From assembly GCA_028554795.2 (NCBI GenBank), contig JAPYKE020000568.1, positions 36,395 to 100,394 of the forward strand: a stretch of 64,000 nt of DNA. The letters run 5' to 3'. Below the pieces are notes generated by a model. That model saw nothing but the letters and a program-made list of their open reading frames with translations. It searched no databases and was not told where the DNA came from. A program made the translations under genes and the position numbers. Origin of the DNA: Sinohyriopsis cumingii (taxonomy: Eukaryota; Mollusca; Bivalvia; Unionida; Unionidae). Below, piece after piece: positions 1,947 through 56,934 of the stretch. Within the stretch, counting starts at the first letter, position 1, and the number at the start of each line of letters is the position of its first letter.

Positions 1947-4900
1947 ATGACCTCTATCATGGTTCATCTGACTATGGTTGTTTGCGGTTTACTCTTGACT
2001 TTTGCCATGGATGGTCCAATCGACGAAGGCAGATATATTGGACAAACTAACCTGGAAGATCACCTTGAGGAAAGACTTCTGGACCGACTTGAGGAGACTC
2101 AGAGAAAGACTGCACAGGTAGGTATCAAGGCACATACAATATAATTCCAAGCTTTCGGATTTCGGTGCCAAATTAATTTAGTGATGGGAATTACAATGTC
2201 GTCTAATCTTGGTCATGGCTTCTATGTTATCTCAGAAGACTGTTCAAATTCGATTGTAGAACAGCAACAACAATATTCATCTTATTCTTGATGAGATTGG
2301 AGAATTGAATAACAAATAACAATGAAATGAGATTACTTAGAGTACTATTGAATATAATAGTATTAAGTCTGAAGCCACCTTGTGTATTGGAATTAACCAT
2401 CAATGTATTTGCAAACTGCACAGCTTGGCAGTCTGAGGCTATTCGGTTGTATGTACTTTTTTATTTATAATTAATTTAAGATATTATTTATCCCACGACT
2501 TTATTAATATTATAGTATTAATAGTTATTTGACAATACACGTCAAACTTTAGAAAAGGACTATAATAGATGCATGACTACCGAAATCATATAACAAATAA
2601 TCTTAAAATTGTGGTTGAGAATTAACCACGTGTGTATAGTAAGGACTGCGACACTCACTTTTGCCTTAGAGAATTTTGCACTATGTAAACTGAATTCTGA
2701 CATGACCAAGATCCATATCACTTTGGATAACAAACGATTGAGCATCGTATTCTAGACTGTGAAAAGATATAAATATTGACTCCACATTGTCTTAAAAGTA
2801 AAAATGTTCCTAGAGTGAACTATCTTTCCAGAACCTAAATGTGAATGTCATAGATCTTTAGATAAATGCAACCAACATGATGAATTTCGTCGATTTAAAA
2901 TGATTCTGGAGTTGTAATACTCTAATATATGTTATATTTGATGATGTTGTTCAATCTGAAGGACTCTAACCATAACTGATAAGGATAATAACTAAAGTTG
3001 AATTAATATAGAGAGACACTGGAAACTAGATGTAATGCAACAACAGTGCTAGCAAACATCTTATCATTAAAAGTGCATTTCGCATTTTAATTCACTTTTT
3101 ACATCTTAAGGCAAATAAAATTTTCTTGCATGCTTGCACAGTTCTATGCCTAATCTATGAATAATTTCATGTTGGCATAATTAAAGGGGATAATCCTTGT
3201 TTTAATATTTTCAGTAGTAGTCGGACAACTTTAATGGTCATGCAAAATAGCATACCATAGTGAATTTCGATAATTTTCATCGCATATGTGAACTCTAGTA
3301 GTTATGTAAAACTTTTCAAAATTTCTTTACAATATCAACCAACGTTAGATATTATATATATGAAATACATAAGCCTACGTGAATTCGAATTCGTTATCTT
3401 CTACATGTCATTGCTTTATTGATTCTGATATTTTGTCATCAAATTTTAGATAATATGATTCCATTGTGGCTTGTTACGTGGTTTTAATGTTCCACATTTG
3501 TAGTTTAGGAATCTATTATTGACTCTACCTTATATTAAGAATTATCACATATTATTTTGCAACTGATTTTGCAATTGTTACCAAATATCTTCTTGTGATC
3601 ATTATAAACATGTTTGGACCGTTATGGGACCATTAATCTGGCTTCCTATTTTGCATACTCAACATAATCAACATACAGGAGTACGAGATGATCATCACCA
3701 TTGACAACGGTAGAAGGCAGAGAACTGAAGCTTGTTACCTGCACAAAATGGATCAAGACCTCCTTGATTCTGTCTGTAAGGAAACTGAAGAAAGGCTATG
3801 AATCGAAGATTACTATAATTTTAGTCCTGCTGAGAACACATACAAACATATTTGCCTACAATTCAGATGATATTCATATTGGCACACACTGCTAACTTTA
3901 ATGCAGAAACTCTCCAACTTCAGTTATTTATGTTCGAATGCAACATTTCCATCAAATTGCAATGTATACCTGATATTTAATGTTTCTTTTAAAATTCACG
4001 ATACCTAATATAAGTATCCATTATCATCTACATAATCTAGAAAACTAAACTCAGAAAAGTTTGTGTTGTCGAAGGATTTTTAGTGTAATAAAGCATTATC
4101 ACCGAAAACACGTTGTTATTCAACGAGAAATTAAACATTGTTCCAAAGGGGAGATTTAAAGGCTAGTACACCTTATATGTTTTATATTACAGGATATTAA
4201 AGTCTACAAGATATAGCATGAGATAAAGGACAAAGAGTTCTTATCCCAAGACGGCCCTGACAGCGTCTGCAAGAATCGGCCGATGTTTATGATTGTGCCT
4301 GTAGAAAAACGAAACCCAACAGGTACATGTATATTTACAGCAAGAATATTAACATGTTTTATTAGATACCTCAAGATCCTCTATAGCAAGATCAGGATTT
4401 GTGTCATCGGATACAAATCCAATCTAAACGGTAAAGGTAGTAGTGCTCAGGCTGATTATTTCTTGCGTTGAGTGCCATAAACTTTCACTCGCTATGAATT
4501 TAAAAGTAAATACTATCTAAGAGTCATGGAACATGCGATTAATTACCTTCGAACGTATCTGAAAATGACTAATTGTAGCAAACAAATGATATCTCAGAAA
4601 TATCGAAACGCACCATTAGAAATTTTTTTATACGTACGAAATTGTAACGTTTTATCAGCCCATGTTGACATTTGTCAATTCGTTGGTTTTGTTATCATCT
4701 ACAAAACTAAGATAAAATATATTAGAAAATGGTTGGACTCAATGTAGAAAGAATTTAATTATTGTCTGAGTTTAATAAATAAATCTATACACAATTTGGT
4801 GCCATCATAGAAAGACCACGTTGCACATGCGTACTATATGTTAACATTCATCGGTTTTACGGTTTTTATATACGGGAACTATCTCAAATCAACCACGAAA

Positions 4901-5677
4901 TTATATAGATGTAAATTTTAATATTCATATTTAGTTTGGTCATTTGTGCCCGAGGATAGTGGATTCTTTTCCATTGAATCTTTTCTTGAAATTATTTCAC
5001 AGAAACATAGCAGACTTGTTCCCGTATATTTTCTCTTTAGACCTCCTCATGTACCATTACAATAGCACTAGAATTTGAGGCTCTTGGTCGTGTTTGAACA
5101 GAAAAGTGTTCCTTCTAACCCATATCTTTAGTTGTGTACCCTCCATCTGGTGCATATCGATAGCGAAAAAAGTAATCTCTAGTTCTCCTTTCATCTCTTG
5201 TAACTGCATATGAGCATTATTAAAAAAAAGTTGTACAAATTTAAATGTAAATGAAACATATTTTTACAACGTAAGGTTGTATGACTATCAGTCCCGTTTA
5301 TATTTCCCATCATACTCATGATGCTTATACATGATTAGGTTTTGAATCATTTTAACTTGCCACTTCTTACCACGATTGCACTTACATGGAGATAAAAAGC
5401 TTACACCCTCACAAAATTATATGATTATATTGTTGCGTTTCAAGCAATGTTCATGTATCAGCTTATGTATATTTTATACTATCACGTGACCAGTTGTCCA
5501 TCAGTGAAATAAACTTTTGCTTGTTGGTAAATCAAATGACAAATGACATTATATTTTGTATTTATTCCAGACGCATCCAAGGATAAAAGATCTTGTTCTC
5601 AGTATTGCTGCTCATGGGGCTGGTGGTGGGTGCCGAAATATTTGCAAAGCTCAGTGCATGCAATGCTGAATAACTAA
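1947..5677 (+). pseudogene. BRICHOS-type peptide precursor, copy A (broken)
   Basis: Five exon remnants in the order of copy C. Exon 1, 1947-2117, is open (57 codons) and starts with a signal peptide. Exon 2 survives only as its 3' part, 2690-2766; it is out of frame and its donor GT has become AT at 2767. Exon 3, 3679-3795, is open (39 codons) but its donor reads CT at 3796. Exon 4, 4193-4322, has an in-frame TAG at 4214-4216. Exon 5, 5571-5677, carries an extra T at 5631, so the frame shifts after the tryptophan run and the last three cysteines of the peptide are lost; the original TGA is at 5667-5669 and the shifted frame stops at 5675-5677. A variant poly(A) signal (ATTAAA) lies near 5,760. 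Independent lesions make function very unlikely. Confidence 0.85.
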
Positions 5678-11505: not shown

Positions 11506-12925
11506 TGATGAGAAATACAAACGGGACTGATAGTCATACAACCTTACGTTGTAAAAATATGTTTCATTTACTTTTGAATTTGTGCAACTATTTTTCAATA
11601 ATGCTCATATGCGGTTACAAGCGATGAAAGGAGAACCGGCGATTACTTTTTTCGTTATCGATATCCACCAGATGGAGGGTACACAACTAAAGATATGGGT
11701 TAGAAGAAACACTTTTCTGTTCAAACACGACCACGAGCCTAAAATTCTAGATCTGTTGTAATGGTACATGAGGAGGTCAAAGAGAAAATATACGGGAACA
11801 ACTCTGCTATGTTTCTGTGAAATAATTTCAAGAAAAGACTCAGTGGAAAAGAATCCACTATCCTCGGGCACAAAATGACCAAACTAAATATGAATATTAA
11901 AATTTGGATCTATATGATTTCGTGATTGATTTGCGATAGTTCCCGTATATAAAAACCATAAAACCGATGAATGTTAACATATAGCACGCATGTGCAACGT
12001 GGTCTTTCTATGATGGCACCAAATTGTGTAAAGATTTCTTTATTAAACTCAGACAATAATTAAATTCTTTCTACATTGAGTCCAACCATTTTCTAATATA
12101 TTTTATCTTAGTTTTGTAGATGATAACGAAACCAACGTATTGGCAAATGTTAACATGGGCTCATAAAAGTCACAATTTCTAAAGCGTAAAAGATTTCCAA
12201 TTGTGCGTTTCGATATTTTTGAGATATCATTTGATTGTCACAATTACTCATTTTCAAGTACGTTCGAATGCGTTCGAAGGTAATTAATCGCATTTTCCTT
12301 GACTCTTAGATGGTATTTACTATTAAATTCATAGCGAGTGAAAGTTAATGACACTCAACGCAAGAAAGAATCAACCTGAGCAATGCTACTTTTAGCGTTT
12401 AGATTGGATTTGTATCCGATGACACAAATCCTGATCTTGCTATAGAGGATCTTGAGGTATCTAATAAAACATGCTAATATTCTTGCCGTAAGTATACACG
12501 AACCTGTTGGGTTTCGTTTTTCTACAGGCACAATCATAAACATCGGCCGATTCTTGCAGACGCTGTCAGGGCCGTCTTGGGATAGGAAATCTTTGTCCTT
12601 TATCTCCTGCTATATCTTGTATACTATGATATCCTGTAATATAAAACATATAAGGTTTAATAGACTTTAAACCCCCCCCCCCTTTGGAAGAATGTTTAAT
12701 TTCTCGTTGAATAACAACGTGCTTTCGGTGATAATGCTTTATTACACTAAAAATCTTTGGACAACACAAACTTTAGTTTTCTCGATTATATAGATGATAA
12801 TGGATAATTATATTAGGCATGGTGAATTTTAAAAGAAACATTAGATTTCAGGTATACATTGCAATTTGATGGAAATGTTGCATTCGAACATAAATAACTG
12901 AAGTTTGAGAGTTTCTGCATTAAAG
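11505..12925 (-). pseudogene. BRICHOS-type peptide precursor, copy B (single exon left)
   Basis: Only exon 4 survives, at 12,504-12,633 on the minus strand, with good acceptor and donor. It codes for the end of the BRICHOS domain (DSVCKN, then MFMIVPVEKR) but has an in-frame TAG at 12,610-12,612, at the same codon as in copy A. Flanking sequence is intron 4 down to about 11,505 and intron 3 up to about 12,925. Both edges are deletion junctions: exon 5 is replaced by block R1, and exons 1-3 are removed by fusion to the region upstream of the promoter. A 13-nt C run at about 12,670-12,682 lies in intron 3. Confidence 0.85.
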
Positions 12926-28990: not shown

Positions 28991-28996
28991 TTTATT
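28991..28996 (-). terminator. Poly(A) signal AATAAA of gene copy C
   Basis: AATAAA on the minus strand about 90 bp downstream of the copy C stop codon. The same signal is at 50,725-50,730 for copy D. Copy A has ATTAAA. Confidence 0.6.
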
Positions 28997-29085: not shown

Positions 29086-32000
29086 TCAGCATTGCATGCA
29101 CTGAGCTTTGCAAGTATTTCGGCCCCACCACCAGCCCCATGAGCAGCAATAACTAGAACATGATCTTTTATCCTTGGATGCGTCTGGAATAAATACAAAA
29201 TATAATGTCATTTGTCATTTGATTTACCACCAAGCAAAAATGTATTTAACTGATGGACAACTGGTCACGTGATAGTATAAAATATACATAAGCCGCTACA
29301 TGTTTATTGCTTGAAACACAACAATATAATTATACAATTTTGTGAGGATGTTAGCTTCTTATCTTCATGTAAGTGCAATGGTGGTGGTATGTAGCAAATT
29401 AAAAAGACTCCAAATCTAATCATGTCTAAGCATTATTAGTATGATGGGAAATATAAACGAGACTGATACTCATACAACCTTACGTTGTAAAAATATATTT
29501 CATTTACATTTAAATTTGTACAACTATTTGTCAATAATGCTCATATGCAGTTACAAGAGATGAAAGGAGAACTAGAGATTACTTTTTTCGTTATCGATAT
29601 GTACCAGATGGAGGGCATACAAGTAAAGGTATGGGTTAGAAGAAACACTTTTCTGCTCAAACACGACCAAGAGCCTAAAATTCTAGATCTATTGTAATGG
29701 TACATGAGGAGGTCTAAAGAGAAAATATACGGAAACAACTCTACTGTGTCTGTGAAATAATCTCAAGAAAAGATTCAATGGAAAAGAATCCACTACCTTC
29801 GGGCACAAATGATCAAACTAAATATGAATATTAAAATTTAGGTCTATATGATTTCGTGATTGATTTGCGATAGTTCCCGTATATAAAGACCATAAAACTG
29901 AAGAATGTTAACATAATGTAGCACGCATGTGCAACGTGGTCTTTCTATGATGGCAGCAAATTGCGTAAAGATTTCTTTATTAAACTCAGACAATAATTAA
30001 ATTCTTTCTACATTGAGTCCAACCATTTTCTAATATATTTTATCTTAGTTTTGTAGATGATAACAAAACCAACCAATTGACAAAAGTCAACGTGGACAGA
30101 TAAAACGTGACAATTTCGTACACGTAAAAGATTTCTAATGGTGCGTTTCGTTTATTCTGAGATATCATTTGTTTGCCACAGCTAGTCATTTTCAAATACG
30201 TTCGAACGTAATTAATCGCATGTTCCACGACTCTTAGATAGTATTAACTTTTGAATTCGGAGCGAGTGTAAGTTTATGGCACTCAACGCAAGAAAGAATC
30301 AGTCTGAGTAATACTAGTGTTACCGTTTAGATTGGATTTGTATCTGATGACACAAATCCTGACTTACTACAGAGGACTTTGAGGTTTCTAAGAAAACATG
30401 TTAATATTTTTGCCGTAAATATCCATGTACCTGTTGGGCTTCGTTTTTCTACAGGCACAATCATAAACATCGGCTGATTCTTGCAGACGCTGTCAGGGCC
30501 GTCTTCGGATAGGAAATCTTTGTCCTTTATCTCCTGCTGTATCTTGTAGACTATAATATCCTGAAATATAAAACATATAAGGTTTACTATACTTAAAATC
30601 TCCCCATTGGAAGAATGTTTAATTTCTCGTTGAATAGCAGGGTTCTTCGGTGATAATGCATTATTACACTAAAAATCCTTGGACAACATCAATTTTCTGA
30701 GTTTAGTTTTCTAGATTATGTAGATGTTAATGGATAATTATATTAGGTATGGTGAATTTTAAAAGAAACATTAAATATCTATACACTGCAATTTGTTGGA
30801 CATGTCACATTCGAACATAAATAACAGAAGTTTGAGAATTCTGCATTAAGGTTAGCAGTGTATGCCAATATGAAAAGAATTTGAATTGTAGGCGAATATG
30901 TTTGTATGTGTTTTCAGAAAGGCTAAAATGATAGTAAGGTTAGATTCATACCCTTTCTCCCTTTTCCTTGCAGACATAATCAAGGAGGTCTTGATCCATT
31001 TTGTGCAGGTAACAAGCTTCAATTCCCTTCATTCTACCGTTGTCATTGGTGATGATAATCTCGTACCCCTGTATGTTAAGTATGTTGAGTATACAAAATA
31101 GGAAGCCAGATTAATGGTCCCATAACTGTCCAAACATGTTAATAATGATCACAAGAAGATATTTGGTAACAATTGCAAAATCTATTGCAAAATAATATTG
31201 TGGTAATTCCTAATATTAGCTAGAGTCAATACTCGAGTCCTAAACAACAAATGTGAAACATTAAAACCGTGTAACAAGCGACAATGGAATCATATTATCT
31301 AAAATATGATGAAAAAATGTCAGAATCAATAAAGCAATGACATATAGAACATTACGAATTTGAATTCACGTAGGTTTATATATATCATATATATAATGTC
31401 TAACGTTGGTATATCAAATATTTATAATAATTATTATTTCCAACAAGCATTGTTGGATCAGATAATGTGGTTGAGATATAATCTCAATTTAGCTTTAGAT
31501 TCTGTGAATGCGCAAAATTGTCAGCGAAGACCTATAACATGAGACATGTTAAATAGAGACATTCTAATTCCAATAAGTTAACGTCTCTAAGCTTGTATTG
31601 TACGGATTTGTTTGTATCATCATACTCTAAAAAATCCGGTAAAATGAAATGTCTGGCTTTGCTAACAATGGATCAAATTACGACTTTTTACCCGAGACAA
31701 TAATACAGCTGTCAACAGGGTTTGGAAAGCAATTGATATTGTACAGAAATTTTGAAAAGTTTTACATAACTACTAGAGTTCACATATGCGATGAAGATTA
31801 TCGAAATTCACAATGGTATACTATTTAGCATGACCATTAAAGTTGTCCGACTACGACTGAACATATTAGAACAAGGATTACCCCTTTAATTATGCCAGCA
31901 TGGAATTCTTCACAGATTATGCATAGAACTGTGCAAGACTACAAGAAAATTTTATTTATGATAAGATATAAAAAGTAAATTAAAATGCAAAATGCACTTT

Positions 32001-33381
32001 TAATGATAAGGTGTTTGCTATCACTGTTGTGGCATTACACAGTTTCCAGTGTCTCTGTTTACTAATTCAACTTTAGTTATTATCTTTATCAAAAATGGTT
32101 TGAGTCCTTCGGTTTGAACATCATCAAGTATAACATATAATAGAGTATTACAAGTCAAGAATCATTTTAAATCGACGCAATTAATCAAGTTGGTTGGATT
32201 TATCTAAAGATCTATGACATTCACATTTAGGTTCTGGAAAGATAGATAACTCTAGGAACATTTTTAATTTTATCACAGTGTTCAGTCAATATTTATACCT
32301 TTTCACAGTCTAGAAGACGCTGTTCAATCAGCTTATTGTCCAAAGTGATGTCGATCTTGGTTATGCCAGAATTCAGTTTTTGAATGGTCTGTTTTTCGTC
32401 TCCATTTGTGTCAGAATCCTCCTGTTTCTGTTGAAAAAATAATAAGATATTAGCTAAATAGCTAAAGTTGGTACTCAGTATTACATAGTATAAATTGCCA
32501 TTAAGAAAAAGCGAGTCTTACATACATTATTGTATGTAAGTGGTTGATTCTTACCGACAGCTTTAAGAAAAGAAAGAAAAGAATGTACATAAAGCCGACT
32601 AGCCTCACACTACCATCCTGAACAATTTACAATTACATTGATGGTTTAAACAAATGGACAAGCTGGTTGTAAACTTTTTACTATTGCAATCAATATTCGC
32701 AGATCAGAGAGGTTCCTTGATGTAAGAGGAGATTTCATATTCTACTATATGTGAACTTTCTTCATCATTTTATTTCAACAGCACTCTATCGAAAAACAAT
32801 TTGTTTTCATACGAATATATGAAAAATCTATAGGGCATGAGATAAATAGCTAATTTTGTCTCTCAATATTATTAAGTGTAAAATTCTCTAAGGCTAAAGT
32901 GAGTGTCGCAGTCCTTCTTATACACAAGTGGTTAATTCTCACCCACAATTTTAAGATTATTCGTTACATGATTGCGGTAGTCATGCATCTATTATAGTCC
33001 TTTTCTATTTGTTATTCAATTCTCCAATCTCAGCAAGAATAAGAAGAATATTGCTGTTGATGTTGTCCAATCGAATTTGAACATTCTTCTGAGATAACAT
33101 AGAAGCCACGACCAAGATTAGACGACATTGTAATTCCCATACCTAAATTAATTTGGCCACCGAAATCCGAAACCTTGGAGATATATTGTATGTGCCTTGA
33201 TACCTACCTGTGGTGCAGTCTCCCTCTGAGACTCCTCAAGTCGGGCCAGAAGTCTTTCCTCAAGATGATCATCCAGGTTAATTTGGTCAATATCTCTGCC
33301 TTCGTCGATTGGACCACCCATAGCAAAGGACAAGAGTAAACAGCAAGCAACTATAGTCAGACGAACCATAATAGAGGCCAT
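29086..33381 (-). CDS. Secreted BRICHOS-domain precursor of a Trp-rich six-cysteine peptide, copy C (intact)
   Basis: Five coding exons on the minus strand: 33381-33208, 32427-32299, 31068-30952, 30560-30431 and 29183-29086. All have AG/GT boundaries, and the frame is open to the stop (215 aa). The ATG follows a splice acceptor directly, so a non-coding exon lies upstream. Residues 1-22 are a signal peptide. Residues 23-65 are acidic and helix-like. Residues about 66-180 fit BRICHOS: a beta-like stretch, then EACYLHKMD (Cys120) and DSVCKN (Cys166) as the usual disulfide pair, with extra Cys99 and Cys134. Dibasic KR pairs at 179-180 and 189-190 would release an 8-residue spacer and a C-terminal peptide, 191-215, with cysteines spaced C-x3-CC-x10-C-x3-C-x2-C and a Trp cluster at 199 and 201-203. 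In known BRICHOS proteins the domain is a chaperone for an aggregation-prone C-terminal segment. An antimicrobial or toxin-like role is inferred. The assignment comes from motif reading, not a profile search. Confidence 0.75.
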
Positions 33382-49352: not shown

Positions 49353-52300
49353 AGTTTAAGTAAGTTATAAACTCTAAGATATTCAGTATTTTTTTTTCTC
49401 GCTCGCTTCTTACTTTCTTCTTCTCTTTTGCAATGGTTTTGCTAATTCCTATTTAGTTGTTTCTCTCGTTTTGCTTATATTTGTAGTTCGGAATTGTATT
49501 TTCTATTGCGCTCAAGTTTTATACCGTATATCTTTAATATATTTTTGGGTGCAAATTTATGGAGGAAGTTTGCAATCTTTTCACACATTTAATTCTATCA
49601 TCATTAATGGTATTCGTTTAGTTCTAAAAAGTCCATATGTTGTATGCTGACGACTGCCATATGTGTACTTCATTCCACGTTTTTCCATCCATTCTCTAGT
49701 CTTCTTTTTTATATATCGGCTTGTATCTATATGTAAGAGGAATCATTAATATACTCGGTGAAGTATATGTAAGTAGTGGTAAGATGGTTCATATGACCAG
49801 TCCATTTCTTCGGACAAACGTTTAAATTTACATTTTTAAGGTATAGTCCTCGTCTTGACATAGCCTTCAGTCGATGATAGAGGGTACGTTTATGGTTTCA
49901 ATAGCTGAAGTTGTCTCAAAGTTGTGTGTTTTGCGTGTGTGTTTGTAGCTTAGAAATCACGTCATACATATGTATATTTAATACTTTCCGACTAATCGAT
50001 CCTGAAATTAAGAATTTATTCATTTTGGAATATAAAAGGTTTCACTATGTTAATCCATTACCATTATTAGACTGAAAGCTACTAAAAACAGTTTTACTCA
50101 TGACTAGCAATATTTTTATTTGTTTTGACTATTGTAACTCTAACATCTACTCATTGTATTTCCTTTAGAACCTTTATTGTATTTAGCGAATGACTGCAAC
50201 TGTCCAGGAATAATTTGAGCCATACAGAACACATTGCTACAGGAAAGATTTGTTCCGTAAAAAATTATATAGAAATATCGGCTTTTATTAAAGTATATCA
50301 GCCTTAAATTAAGTGGGGCTAATGTGACAGACTTTTCTATATCCTTTATAATTCATTGTGGGTTTTTTTGTCCTTACATTTTATGTCGTAAACCTATTCG
50401 TGTTCCTACCAGTAGGTGCTTGTATGACGATGGCGTGGTTTCATTTGCTATATTGAAGTTACCGACCGAATAATATTCTTTGATGTATCTCACAAATTTC
50501 AGGTGAAAACATATTAGCTCACTATGAACATTCTAATCAAACAGCAGATTAAATTATGACAAGTGGTTTCATTTTCTATGTAATTTTGTTTAATATCTAT
50601 CATTAAATAATGTACATCCACTGATGGAATGCATATGATGTGTATTCTTGTAATTATTCGGACATGTTCTCCTAAGTAGATATATTAGCATAATAAAATA
50701 CACAATACTCAAATCTAAAAGACTTTTATTGTCTTCGGATATACAATGATTTTCATTTTCTTACAGCAGATTTGTTGGAATTAGGCATGCAAAGTGAATG
50801 TTCACTTTTGTTTAGTTATTCAGCATTGCATGCACTGAGCTTTGCAAGTATTTCGACCCCACCACCAACCCCATGAGCAGCATTACTGAGAACAAGATCT
50901 TTTATCTTTGGATGCGTCTGGAAATAAAATAAAAATATAATATCAGTTGTCATCTGATTTACCAAGAAGCAAAAATGTATTTAACTGATGTACAACTGGT
51001 CACATGATTGTATAACATATAGATAAGCTGATACATGTACATTGTTTGAAACACAACAATATAATTATATACTTTTGTGAGGATGTTAGCTTTTTATCTT
51101 CATGTATGTGTAATGGTGGTAGTATGTAACATAACTAAAAAGACTCCAAATTTGATCATGTCAAAGCATCATGAGTATGATAAGAAATATAAACTGGCCT
51201 GATAGACATACAACCTTACGTTGTAAAAATATGTCTCATTACATTTAAATTTGTAAAACTATTTTTCAATAATGCTCATATGCGGTTACAAGAAATGAAA
51301 GGAGAACTAGAGATTACTTTATTTGTTATCGATATGTACCAGATGGAGGGTACACATCTAAAGATATGGGTTAGAAGAAACACATTTCTTCTCAAACACG
51401 ACCAAGAGCCTAAAATTCTAGTGTTATTGTAATGGTACACGAGGAGGTCGAAAGAGTAAATATACGAGAACAGCTATAGTATGTACCTGTGAAATAATTT
51501 CATGAAAAGATTCAATGGAAAAGAATCCGATATCCTCGGGCAAAAATGACGAAACTAAATATGAATATTAAAATTTAGGTCTATATGATTTCAAAATTAA
51601 TTTGTGATATTTCCCGTGTAAAAAGGGCATAAAACCTAAGAGTGTTAACATGTAGTACGCATGTGCAACATGGTCTTTCTATGATGGCAGCAAATTGCGT
51701 AAAGATTTCTGTATTCAACTGAGACAATATTTAAATTCTTTCTACATTGAGTCTGGTCATTTTCTAATATATTTTAGCTTAGTTTTGTAGATGATAACAA
51801 AACCAACGAATTTACAAATGTCAACAAGGGCAGATAAAACCTGACTATTTCGTACGCGTAAAAGATTTCTAAAGGTGAATTGCGTTTTTTCTGAGATGTC
51901 ATTTATTTGCCACAATTAGTCATTTTCAAATACGTTCCTAGTTAATTATTTGCATGTTCCACGGCTCTTAGATGGTATTTACTTTTAAATTCTGAGCGAG
52001 TGTAAGTTTATGGCACTCAACGCAAGAAAGAATCAACCTGAGTAATACTAGTTTTACCGTTTAAATTGCATTTGCATCCGATGACACAAATCCTGATCTT
52101 ACTATAGAGGACCTGTTGGGCATCGTTTTTCTACGGGCACAATCATAAACATCGGCCGATTCTTGCAGACGCTGTCAGGGCCGTCTTGGGATAGGAAATC
52201 TTTGTCCTTTACCTCCTGCTTTATCTTGTAGACTATAATATCCTGCAATATAAAACATATAAGGTATACCCGAATTAAAATCCCCACTTTGGAAGAATGT

Positions 52301-53127
52301 TTAATTTCTCGTTGAATAGCAGGGTGCTTTCGGTGATAATGCATTATTACACTAAATATAGTTGGACAACATCAACTGTTCTGCGGTTAGTTTTCTAGAT
52401 TATGTAGGTTTTAATGGATACTTATATTAGGTATGGTGAATTTTAAAAGAAACATTAAATATCAGGTATACATTGCAATTTGTTGTGAATCTTGCATTCG
52501 AACATAAATAACTGAATTTGACAGCTTCTGCGTTAAAATTAGCAGTGTATGCCATAAGACTAAATTTAGAATTGTAGGCCAATATGCTTATGTTTTCAAG
52601 AAGCCTGAAATGATAGTAAAGTTAGGAACATACCCTTTCTCCTTTTTCCTTGCAGACGTAATCAACGAGCGCATGATCCATTTTGTGCAGGTAGCCAGCT
52701 TCAATTATCTTCGTTCTACCATTGTTATTGGTAATGACCATCTCGTACCCCTGTGTGTTGAGTATGTTGATTATACAAAATAGGAAGCGTGAATAATGTC
52801 CCATAACAGTCAAGCATGTTCATAATGATCACAAGAAGATATTTGGTAACAATTGCAAAATCAATTGCAAAATAATATTGTGGTAATTCCTAATATTAGC
52901 TAGAGCCAATAATCGATTCCTAAACTACCAACGTGGAACATTAAAACCATGTAAGAAGCGACAATGGAATCATATTATCTAAAATATGATGACAAAATAT
53001 CAGAATCAATAAAGCAATGACATATAGAAGATTACGAATTCGAATTCACGTAGGCTTATGTATATCATATATATGATGTCTAACGTTGGTATATCAAATA
53101 TTTATAATAATTACTATCTCAAACAAA

Positions 53128-53381
53128 GGGGCCCCGAGTGGCCGAGTGGTCTAAAGCGCTCTTCGTTACGGATCACTGCCATCTCACCTCTGTCTGCGGC
53201 GGTTCGAGTCTAGGATTCAGCCAATGTGGGTATGTGAGAAAGCTTGCCAGTAGCTTCTCGTGGGTCGGTGGTTCTTTCCGGTGTTTTCCTGGGTTTTTCC
53301 TCCACCAATAATACTGGCCGCCATGTATAGCCTATCGTGTGCTGAAAAATGGCGTTAAACCCCACAACAATAACAATAACA
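53128..53381 (+). mobile_element. Full-length tRNA-derived SINE with 12-bp target duplication
   Basis: The head reads as a tRNA-like promoter: box A region GTGGCCGAGTGGTCTAAAGC and box B GGTTCGAGTCT. A central block follows (GAAAGCTTGCCAGTAGCTTC, then TTTTTCCTCCACCAATAATACTGGCCGCC in two parts) of the type shared by lophotrochozoan SINEs, and then an AACAATAACAATAACA tail. The 12-bp ATCTCAAACAAA occurs at 53,116-53,127 and 53,382-53,393. Copy C's intron 2 (near 31,440) lacks the insert. It is the reference copy for the older SINEs in the Q blocks. Confidence 0.9.
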
Positions 53382-54333
53382 ATCTCAAACAAATATTGTT
53401 CGATCAGATATTGTGGTTGAGATATAATCTCACTTTAGCTTTAGATTCCGTGAATGCGCAAAATTGTCAACGAAGATCTATAATATGAGACATGTTAAAT
53501 AGAGACATTCTAATTCCAATAAGTTAAAGTCTCTAAGCTTGTAGTGTACAGATTTGTTGGTAAGTGTCACCATATTCTAAAATATCAGGTAAAAGAAAAC
53601 GTCTGCTTTCACTAAGAAGGGATCAAATTATGTATGTTTATCGGAGACAATAATACAGCTGCATGCATATTTTGGAATGGAACGGAAATTGCTTAAAAAT
53701 TATGAAAATTTATACATAACTACTAGAGTTCACATATGTGATGAAGATTATCGCGATTCACAATGGTATACTATTTAACATGAATTTTAAAATTGTCCGA
53801 ATTCTATTGAAAGACACTTTTAATAACAAAAGCTTTGCTGGCACTGTTGTTGCATTATACCTCGTTTCTAGTGAATCTCTATATTAATTTATCTTCAGTG
53901 ATGTTCATCAATTATGGTTAGGATTATAATGATAAGACATCATCGATTATAACCTATAATAGAGTATTACAAGTCAAGAATCATTTTAAATAGACACAAT
54001 TCATCATGTTGCTTGCATGTATCTAACAATCTAGTGCGTGGGATACCTATTTAGGTACTGGAAAGATGGATAAATGTAGGAAGAATTTTAATTTTATCAC
54101 AGTGTTGAGTCAATATCACTGGACAACAAATTTTTACAAAAGTCATGTTACTGAAATAAAATTAGTCAATTCTTATCAATTTTTATGTGCTGAACACGAA
54201 TATGACAGTCAAATTGCAAAATTGGCTCTAGTTTTTTTGTAATCTGCAAGAAATTAATGTTTACATAACGAAATGCATTCCAATAGTAAAAGGTCAACTG
54301 TAATAGCCTACCTATAAAAAATCAAATCATTGA

Positions 54334-56022
54334 CTACATCTTAGATTTCTTCGCCTGTCTCTTGTACAGCTGTTCGGGAGCATCTCTGAGGAGTGTCCAG
54401 CAGTAGTCAGCCAGCATTGTAGTGGACCATTTTCCCTGGTATCTTTGTTCCACTGTTGCGATATCTTGATGAAAACATTCGCCGTGTTCATCACTAACAA
54501 TACCACAGTTGCTAGGAAAGAAATCCAAATGGGAATGAAGGAAGTGAATCTTTAGAGACATATTGCAGCCAAGTTTCTTATACTTCATCAACATGTCTTC
54601 TACTAGTTCCTTATAGTTTTCTGCCCTAACATTTCCGAGGAAGTTTGTAGAAACTAGGCGAAAAGCATTCCATGCTTGTTTCGCGTCACCTTCCAGCAAG
54701 TTGTTGAACCGGTCATCTTTGAAAAGCTCTCGAATCTGAGGACCCACAAAAACTCCCTCTTTAATCTTTGCTTCGCTGAGTCGAGGGAATTTTTCATGCA
54801 GGTATCGGAATGCTGGCAAAGTCCAGTCAATGGCTTTCACGAAGTTCTTCATCAAACCTAGTTTGATGTGAAGGGGTGGTAGCAAGATTTTCTGAGCCTC
54901 AACCAGAGCTGGGTGTTGGATATTCTTCTCTCCAATGGCTACATTCTGCCTGTGAGTCCATTCCTTCCTCATGTAGTGCATTTCCCTTGCTCGGCTATCC
55001 CACTCGCATAAGAAACACATGTATTTTGTATATCCTTGCTGCAGTCCCATTAAAAGGGCAACTACCTTCAAATCACCACAGAGGTGCCAGCTGTACTTGT
55101 TATACTCAATGGAATTCAGTAGCTGCCTTAAGCTATCGTATGTCTCTTTCATGTGGACAGCATACGCTACTGGAATAGATGGAAGAATGTTTCCATTGTG
55201 CAAAAGCACAGCCTTGAGACTCAGTTTCGAAGAGTCCACAAATAGTCTCCATTCTTGTGGGTCATGAGTGATTTTTAAAGCATTCATGAGGCCCTCAATA
55301 TCGGAACAGAATATCAGATTACTTTCCTTTCTGAAGAAAGGCTCCAATTGCTGGTGGCGCTTTCGATATGCAGTAATTGTGACATCTTCTTCTAGAAGAT
55401 TCCATTGTTGGAGTCTTGATCCTAGCAATTCTGCCTTGTTCTTTGATAAGTCCAAATCACGAATCAGGTCATTTAGTTCTTCCTGTGTTATTCTGTGTGG
55501 GGTTGATGATGCACCACAGTGAAAATCTGGATCACTGCATGCTGATGGACCAGGAGAAGAACAGGTCGACTCACCTTTGTCTTCGTCAGATGAATCAAGA
55601 GAATATTCTGCTGGAGGTTCTGGAATAGGAAGTCCCTCACCATGTGGAACTGGTCTCAATGCAGACGGAATGTTTGGGTAGACTATTCTCGACTTCTTTC
55701 GCTTCGTTATTCCGCCGGAAAGAGGAGGAACCAAGCAGAAGTAACAGTCATTTAGGTGGTTGCTTGGCTCTCTCCACACCATTGGGACTGCAAACGGCAT
55801 TGATGACCTTTTGCAATTCAACCACTGTGAAAGCTGTGTTGTACATGTAGCACAGCATATATGCGGAGCCCAAGGCTTGTCTTGGTCACCAACCTTGCAT
55901 CCGAAGTAAAGATGATATGCCTTCTTCACTTGAGAATTGATACTTTTCTTCTGGTTGGCAAATGTCACTTCCCCACAAATATAGCAAAAATTGTCCGCGG
56001 TATTAACACACTTTCGAGGCAT
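54334..56022 (-). CDS. DDE-type transposase, 562 aa
   Basis: Uninterrupted from ATG to TAG, the only long open frame in the window. The N-terminus has a metal-binding-like cluster (Cys13-x2-Cys16, then Cys57-x2-Cys60) and a further Cys93-x2-Cys96. A Ser/Pro/acid-rich linker follows (about 120-175). Candidate catalytic acids are Asp263 (RLFVDSSK), Asp317 (LCGDLKVV, followed by CFLC at 336-339) and Glu512 or Glu515 (SDEHGECFHQD). The C-terminus is basic (KRQAKKSKM). I recognise the pattern GDLK ... GLQ-G-TKY-C-LC-WDSRA ... PPLHIKLGLMK as that of a widespread animal transposase family often left unnamed in annotation. It would excise and insert its own element. The intact frame suggests recent arrival, but activity is not shown. 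Confidence 0.85.
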   Translation of the reverse strand: MPRKCVNTADNFCYICGEVTFANQKKSINSQVKKAYHLYFGCKVGDQDKPWAPHICCATCTTQLSQWLNCKRSSMPFAVPMVWREPSNHLNDCYFCLVPPLSGGITKRKKSRIVYPNIPSALRPVPHGEGLPIPEPPAEYSLDSSDEDKGESTCSSPGPSACSDPDFHCGASSTPHRITQEELNDLIRDLDLSKNKAELLGSRLQQWNLLEEDVTITAYRKRHQQLEPFFRKESNLIFCSDIEGLMNALKITHDPQEWRLFVDSSKLSLKAVLLHNGNILPSIPVAYAVHMKETYDSLRQLLNSIEYNKYSWHLCGDLKVVALLMGLQQGYTKYMCFLCEWDSRAREMHYMRKEWTHRQNVAIGEKNIQHPALVEAQKILLPPLHIKLGLMKNFVKAIDWTLPAFRYLHEKFPRLSEAKIKEGVFVGPQIRELFKDDRFNNLLEGDAKQAWNAFRLVSTNFLGNVRAENYKELVEDMLMKYKKLGCNMSLKIHFLHSHLDFFPSNCGIVSDEHGECFHQDIATVEQRYQGKWSTTMLADYCWTLLRDAPEQLYKRQAKKSKM

Positions 56023-56140
56023 TACTGTTCTTTATTGTACGTAAATGGATAAAATAATAAGTTTTATGTAACAGTAGCTTGAACTGTCTCGCACAACGTC
56101 TAAAATATTTTAAATGCTAAACCTATCTGATTGGGCTTTA

Positions 56141-56256
56141 TATAGTACACTGCTTACGTCAGCTTCAGCAGCCGCCTGGCATTAGTATAATAGGCCTACA
56201 CATGTATAGTACACTGCTGACGTCAACTTACTTCAGCAGCCGCATGGCATTAGTAT
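56141..56256. repeat. Tandem 45-50-bp repeat upstream of the transposase
   Basis: TATAGTACACTGCT(T/G)ACGTCA followed by CTTCAGCAGCCGC and TGGCATTAGTAT occurs at 56,141-56,188 and 56,205-56,256. The second copy contains a perfect TGACGTCA (56,218-56,225). The pair lies 120-235 bp upstream of the transposase ATG and may be a promoter or transposase-binding element. Confidence 0.7.
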
Positions 56257-56934
56257 TGCATTGCATCAGAAAATGATGCAATCAGCTGTGGATGATGTGA
56301 GCATGATGGTATTATGCAATGTTACATCATTATTCCGGATGTTGCTGCAGTCCTACTGGAGAAATTTACACATTGCAACATAGAAAATGAGGTATATGAA
56401 TATCTTCAAAACGAGAGCCAATACAAATTTTTCACGGTTATATTCGTGTTCGGCACACCAAAATACTACAGATTAGGGCCTTTTCAAGTCAGTAATGATT
56501 TCACTGTTGACCAGTGTATTTATACCTTTTCACAGTCTAGAATACGCTGTTCAATCAGTTTATTGTCCAAAGTGATGTCGATCTTGGTTATCTCAGAATT
56601 CAGTTTTTGAAAGTCTGTTTTTCGTCTCCATTTGTGTCAGAATCCTCCGGTTTCTGTTGAAAAAATAATACGATATGAACTAAATAGCTAATGTTGGTAG
56701 CCAGTATTACATAGTATAAAGTGCCCTTAGGCAAAATGGAGTCTTTCAGGCCTTCTTATACACAAGCGGTTGATTCGTACCGATAGTTTCACTGCCCACC
56801 TGTACATTCTACAAGTACATTGACAGTTTAAACAAATGGACAATGTGGCTTTAAACTTTGCACTATTACAATCAGTCTTCCCAGATGTGTGATGTGATTT
56901 TGATTTAACGTAGCTTTAACAATTTTTCAGTCAT

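Follow-up and report, generated by a model that had tools for sequence, protein, structure and literature searches.

The minus strand of a 64,000-nucleotide window of the genome of the unionid mussel Sinohyriopsis cumingii (C568:36395-100394; window positions are used below unless another contig or locus is named) carries at 29086-33381 a five-exon gene, termed copy C, which is predicted to encode a precursor with a BRICHOS-like middle domain and a short Trp- and Cys-rich C-terminal cargo peptide. We interpret copy C, with a probability of roughly 0.55, as intact and as belonging to a family of chaperoned, secreted host-defence peptide precursors of freshwater mussels. Its exons (174, 129, 117, 130, and 98 bases) join in phase into a product of 215 amino acids (aa) that ends at a stop codon at 29088-29086, and all four introns are GT-AG, with phases 0-0-0-1. 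This structure had been proposed in an initial annotation made from the sequence, the coordinates of which proved exact. The features of the copy C locus are as follows:

33208-33381, minus strand: exon 1, 58 aa, with the ATG, a hydrophobic signal-like start, and an acidic pro-region
32299-32427, minus strand: exon 2, 43 aa, containing the invariant Asp98-Cys99
30952-31068, minus strand: exon 3, 39 aa, with the BRICHOS-like CYLHKMD, Cys120, and Cys134
30431-30560, minus strand: exon 4, with the BRICHOS-like DKDFLSEDGPDSVCKNQPMF, Cys166, and the first KR
29086-29183, minus strand: exon 5 (cargo exon), with the second KR, the six-Cys peptide, and a TGA stop
29089-29163, minus strand: predicted mature peptide, 25 aa after KR, from the translation, with cleavage assumed
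28991-28996, minus strand: AATAAA polyadenylation-like hexamer in the sequence about 90 bases past the stop

After the acidic region the precursor comprises, in order, the domain marked by CYLHKMD and SVCKN, EKR, a short spacer, DKR, and SCSSYCCSWGWWWGRNTCKAQCMQC; its N-terminus is hydrophobic and signal-like, as judged by eye. The gene is unlikely to have arisen by chance, since the five exons and their phases recur in nine genome models and a Potamilus protein can be aligned to it from end to end. The sequence TTTTTCAG lies immediately 5' of the ATG, and CAG occupies the same place in L031, L045, L048, and L049 (L-numbers denote loci of the same genome), which suggests a non-coding exon upstream; in L037 the ATG is not immediately preceded by AG. 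The reading frame of exon 5 was confirmed as the only one free of stops in all seven exon-5 sequences compared, with the Cys residues kept; the other two frames are not stop-free across these sequences and were rejected. Both annotated KR sites are present in copy C, and KR or KK directly precedes the cargo in 14 of 17 members. The 8-residue spacer peptide expected between the two sites is found in copy C but is not conserved: among the six intact genes with the cargo layout of copy C, the upstream KR occurs in three (C, L045, and L048) and is absent from L049, L031, and L032. A spacer of 5 residues flanked by two basic pairs recurs in database proteins P0001-P0005 and in the L036/L052 gene.

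A protein search with copy C (E up to 10) yielded one relative, a hypothetical protein of Potamilus streckersoni (E 3.4e-29), whereas a search with the two-sequence alignment yielded seven, all hypothetical (three in P. streckersoni and four in Sinanodonta woodiana), with consecutive or nearly consecutive locus tags. All seven belong to unionid freshwater mussels, and the annelid setting originally assumed is not borne out. A further search with a 14-sequence alignment returned P0001 alone, missing known relatives, and has no bearing on absence elsewhere. In the assembly from which the window was taken (2.9 Gb, 1138 contigs), a search with copy C gave matches at 73 places (E up to 10), of which the best candidates alone were scored. 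Ten close copies, copy C included, were recognized at the DNA level, five lying on C568 and the other five on C18 (83.27-83.44 Mb). Over its main match, each of the nine others is 86-91% identical to copy C, and DNA comparison revealed no allele-like copy of C among the ten. The frame is intact in four (C, L045, L048, and L049); in L049 the usual stop codon is lost and the product is longer by six residues.

More distant members were found on C118 (L031), C14 (L032), C15 (L038, partial, and L039), C8 (L037), and C17 (L035, and L036, the last exon of which lies in L052), along with decayed ones on C18 (L033 and L034). The missing last exon of L036 was sought in L051 and was not there, and it was later located in L052. 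Close counterparts of P0006 and P0002 lie on C17, where eight of nine exon matches are 76-92% identical and the ninth 53%. Phases 0-0-0-1 are common to the nine complete five-exon models; the exon-2 end of L039 was shifted by 3 bases by hand to a GT seen in the sequence. The otherwise intact, P0006-like L035 has one GC-AG intron, at the end of exon 2. L033 and L034 (C18:70.49 and 82.84 Mb) are very similar and about 12 Mb apart, each with different lesions.

The cargos were compared in 17 members (11 from this genome and 6 from the database), trimmed by hand at the basic site; the set omits the decayed copies A, D, L033, L034, L044, L046, and L047, while copy B and P0007 lack a complete cargo. 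All 17 contain six Cys. The pattern of copy C, C-x3-CC-x10-C-x3-C-x2-C (spacing 3-0-10-3-2) with four Trp within the five residues WGWWW, is exactly as first described. This asymmetric Trp/CC type, with 2-4 Trp, accounts for eight cargos, six with x10 and two with x7 in its place. The other nine have exactly palindromic Cys spacing, either 3-3-4-3-3 (L035, L037, and P0006) or 2-3-5-3-2 (L036/L052 and P0001-P0005); the cargos of L033 and L034 are also 3-3-4-3-3, but with stops. Judging by the spacing, the palindromic layouts suit nested three-disulfide hairpins in which Cys 1-6, 2-5, and 3-4 face each other. The 3-0-10-3-2 spacing of copy C lacks the palindrome of a three-disulfide nested β-hairpin. 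A single-sequence model of the 31-residue copy C exon places helices 5-15 and 21-28 around the Trp loop (predicted local distance difference test, pLDDT, 67.7; predicted template modelling score, pTM, 0.24), so the copy C cargo may form a helical rather than a β-hairpin. A Foldseek search with this 31-aa model gave no PDB match at E up to 10. The low-confidence model of P0001 has strands 195-199 and 209-213 in the palindrome register.

In a tree of 15 precursors built without the cargo, the layouts group by clade, with three changes, the minimum for four groups. Strong support is limited to the 2-3-5-3-2 group (100/99; 63/19 for CC-x10 and 48/0 for 3-3-4-3-3), and the branch of L039 is long. 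It is possible, though we put it forward tentatively, that one BRICHOS-type prodomain serves freshwater mussels as a platform for swappable cargos, a molluscan counterpart of the cathelicidins. The same four exons would then deliver last-exon peptides of different fold, always with six Cys: three-rung cystine-ladder β-hairpins (3-3-4-3-3 and 2-3-5-3-2) and the Trp-tipped, disulfide-tied helical hairpin of copy C. The L037 cargo (5358-5470 of its locus; VCRNVCNRVCTWRSCNLICKVIC-G) combines the palindromic 3-3-4-3-3 layout with a charge of +4 and a final Gly next to the stop codon, the kind of end associated with amidation, and from its sequence looks the most antimicrobial of the family.

If copy C is a host-defence precursor, its product would be secreted by means of the predicted signal peptide, and the middle of the protein (about residues 73-180) would fold as a divergent BRICHOS-type chaperone. 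By the model of annelid and vertebrate BRICHOS proteins, this domain would keep the aggregation-prone Cys- and Trp-rich C-terminus soluble and aid formation of three disulfides in the secretory pathway. A furin/kexin-type convertase would cut after the Lys-Arg just before the cargo, releasing a weakly cationic (+2) peptide of 25 residues, whose Trp cluster would cap a hairpin tied by disulfides and could insert into membranes. Host defence is the most likely role, given an array that is both expanding and decaying, cargos that are short and rich in Trp and Cys, and the existence of cationic relatives, L037 among them.

Several observations weigh against this interpretation and bear in turn on the state of the gene, the identity of its domain, and the role of its cargo. 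With respect to the gene, decay has affected six of the ten close copies (A, B, D, L044, L046, and L047), and the ratio of nonsynonymous to synonymous substitution rates (dN/dS) among the youngest copies is 0.5-1.9, the comparison of C with L049 giving 1.9. Copy C might accordingly be a recent duplicate heading to decay without a peptide of its own, the function resting on other family loci, but we consider this quite improbable, because its splice sites, frame, Cys residues, KR sites, and AATAAA are all intact and its exons are less diverged than its introns with respect to L045 (5.1 v 11.3%, Fisher p 7e-7), L048 (5.5 v 8.4%, p 0.011), and L049 (5.9 v 9.6%, p 0.0017). Over all pairs of intact copies, the exons are less diverged at p <0.05 in five of six (L048-L049, p 0.065). 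This contrast between intact and decayed copies is modest, since the exon/intron divergence ratios relative to C overlap between the six decayed (0.46-0.96) and the three intact copies (0.48-0.67). For more distant members, the comparison of C with L031 (dS 0.43) gives a dN/dS of 0.50 for the whole sequence and 0.31 for the cargo, and that with L032 (dS 1.2) gives 0.36.

With respect to the domain, copy C itself, annotated as a BRICHOS protein, has no match to the Pfam BRICHOS profile (PF04089; library of 24,736 families) even at E up to 10. None of the 14 aligned members (all but L048, L038, L036/L052, and P0007) reaches the curated cut-off of 25 bits, and the seven database relatives have no match. 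Alignment of the family to the human proSP-C BRICHOS domain with hhalign was not significant (P 0.34), a weak test with a single-sequence template, although in this alignment CYLHKM falls opposite CYIMKI. No PDB sequence match had an E value below 0.8, and the AlphaFold model of P0001 (pLDDT 38) is too poor for judging the fold. These results would also fit an unrelated prodomain whose layout became similar by convergence, but this is improbable for the following reasons. PF04089 matches three of the 14 members below the cut-off (E 0.038, 0.052, and 0.065; 13.9-14.6 bits), covering positions 22-24 to 90-91 of the 91-position profile, up to its end, on residues 116-173 (exons 3-4). Two of these three are close paralogues, which leaves about two independent matches, and single chance matches of similar strength to other Pfam families were also seen; BRICHOS is nevertheless the only family matching more than one member, and the one, among 24,736, named in advance by the initial annotation.

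Asp98, Cys120, Cys166, the pair Cys99/Cys134, and all six cargo Cys are invariant in the 14 members. The matched region spans Cys120 and Cys166, the two conserved Cys expected of a BRICHOS domain, and Asp98 is a candidate equivalent of the conserved BRICHOS Asp at the end of β-2. Two invariant Cys and one Asp are what is stated of BRICHOS in PMC6265681, and the order of signal, domain, basic site, and nested-Cys cargo is that listed for BRICHOS proteins in PMC9714404. The middle domain is likely BRICHOS; it is termed BRICHOS-like here and not assigned to the Pfam family. A Pfam BRICHOS search of the whole S. cumingii genome (E up to 0.001) found none, but 14 control genomes likewise gave none, and this result shows no absence.

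With respect to the cargo, the net charge is +2 in copy C and from -1 to +5 over the 17 cargos, low for an antimicrobial peptide (AMP), and P0006, L038, and L039 have no dibasic pair directly before the cargo. A BRICHOS-like precursor with a signalling, protease-inhibiting, metal-binding, or extracellular structural peptide would account for the weak charge of most members (-1 in L038). BRICHOS proteins such as OAF are not known to be antimicrobial. Nested-Cys cargos are common to such proteins (PMC9714404), yet we regard a non-antimicrobial cargo as unlikely, given that the expanded and decaying array and the short Trp/Cys-rich cargos appear to resemble defence-peptide families. A survey of β-hairpin AMPs describes Trp as absent from the loops, unlike the Trp tip of copy C (PMC13001179).

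The proposed defence precursor resembles the annelid BRICHOS precursors (arenicins, alvinellacin, capitellacin, nicomicins, and abarenicins) in its signal, acidic BRICHOS pro-region, dibasic site, and C-terminal peptide, which in annelids mostly contains Cys (PMC6265681, PMC9410094). The preproalvinellacin gene has five introns, encodes the AMP in its last exon, and belongs to a partly tandem family (PMC5431198), and the last-exon cargo and duplicated genes of the mussel family are comparable. The mussel family differs in its bivalve host, six Cys per compiled cargo, Pfam scores below the cut-off, and the additional invariant Cys99 and Cys134. Annelid cargos had been taken to be limited to one or two disulfides, which is not the case: Heteromastus HfBRI-75 and HfBRI-91 are BRICHOS cargos with 11 Cys, nine cargo families are reported in one worm, and the Cys-rich AmIMP1/2 of Arenicola are mentioned as well (PMC10745061). 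These many-Cys cargos of BRICHOS precursors are the nearest counterparts in kind; HfBRI-75/-91 are, like the mussel cargos, weakly cationic and without established function (PMC10745061), but have 11 Cys in 75-91 residues, as opposed to 6 in about 21-31. OAF and BRI2 share nested Cys in a hairpin predicted at the C-terminus, behind a furin-type site (PMC9714404), and differ from the short six-Cys peptides in cargo length (70 residues in OAF) and Cys layout. Theta-defensins are single β-hairpins with three disulfides (PMC13001179), but, unlike the mussel peptides, are macrocyclic and from primates.

A 2022 mini-review describes BRICHOS AMPs as found only in polychaetes (PMC9756803), and a BRICHOS domain-containing protein is tabulated among upregulated toxin-responsive genes of Mytilus (PMC4203926). 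No report of a bivalve BRICHOS AMP was found in the literature searched (mostly open-access journals and few preprints, as listings and excerpts). What is new relative to this literature is a family in a bivalve, together with the layouts of its cargos; many-Cys BRICHOS cargos were already published for annelids.

Among hairpin peptides, tachyplesin has the Cys spacing 3-4-3, and the 3-3-4-3-3 relatives, not copy C, look like this core with one more rung. Alpha-hairpinins are plant helical hairpins with the pattern C-x3-C ... C-x3-C; copy C likewise has two C-x3-C and a two-helix model at the confidence given above, but differs in its extra vicinal Cys and terminal Cys, its Trp tip, its animal origin, and the lack of a Foldseek match in the PDB. 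A literature search for a molluscan hairpinin gave no lead among the 5 of 22 papers listed. Tachyplesin-type spacing is also printed as C-X4-C-X4-C-X4-C (PMC10745061).

A bivalve family with the same plan, if true, would make the BRICHOS AMP system older or wider in Lophotrochozoa. The changes of layout at a constant six Cys would make it testable on natural variants what a BRICHOS chaperone accepts, and the cargos offer small stable scaffolds. Unionid mussels are a threatened group whose peptide defences are little known.

Three further copies were found in the window by tblastn of the copy C exons:

1947-5666, plus strand: copy A, decayed, with frameshifts in exons 2 and 5 and a stop in exon 4
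12505-12633, minus strand: copy B, a decayed remnant of exon 4 interrupted by a stop, the flanking DNA matching too
50823-56653, minus strand: copy D, decayed, exon 1 not found, with a frameshift in exon 2 and a stop in exon 5

The exon-4 stop codon is identical in copy A (4193-4321, plus strand) and copy B (12505-12633, minus strand), and the two therefore probably share a decayed ancestor that was duplicated after decay began. At C18:82.98-83.10 Mb, four near-identical exon-1-like signal/pro-region sequences (L040-L043) were observed; no convincing BRICHOS or cargo exon was found in the surrounding stretches analysed, and their leader perhaps belongs to another gene. Intron 2 of copy D contains a 565-aa open frame (54334-56031, minus strand), which has no Pfam match at E up to 1 and which we would guess to be a mobile-element or domesticated gene.

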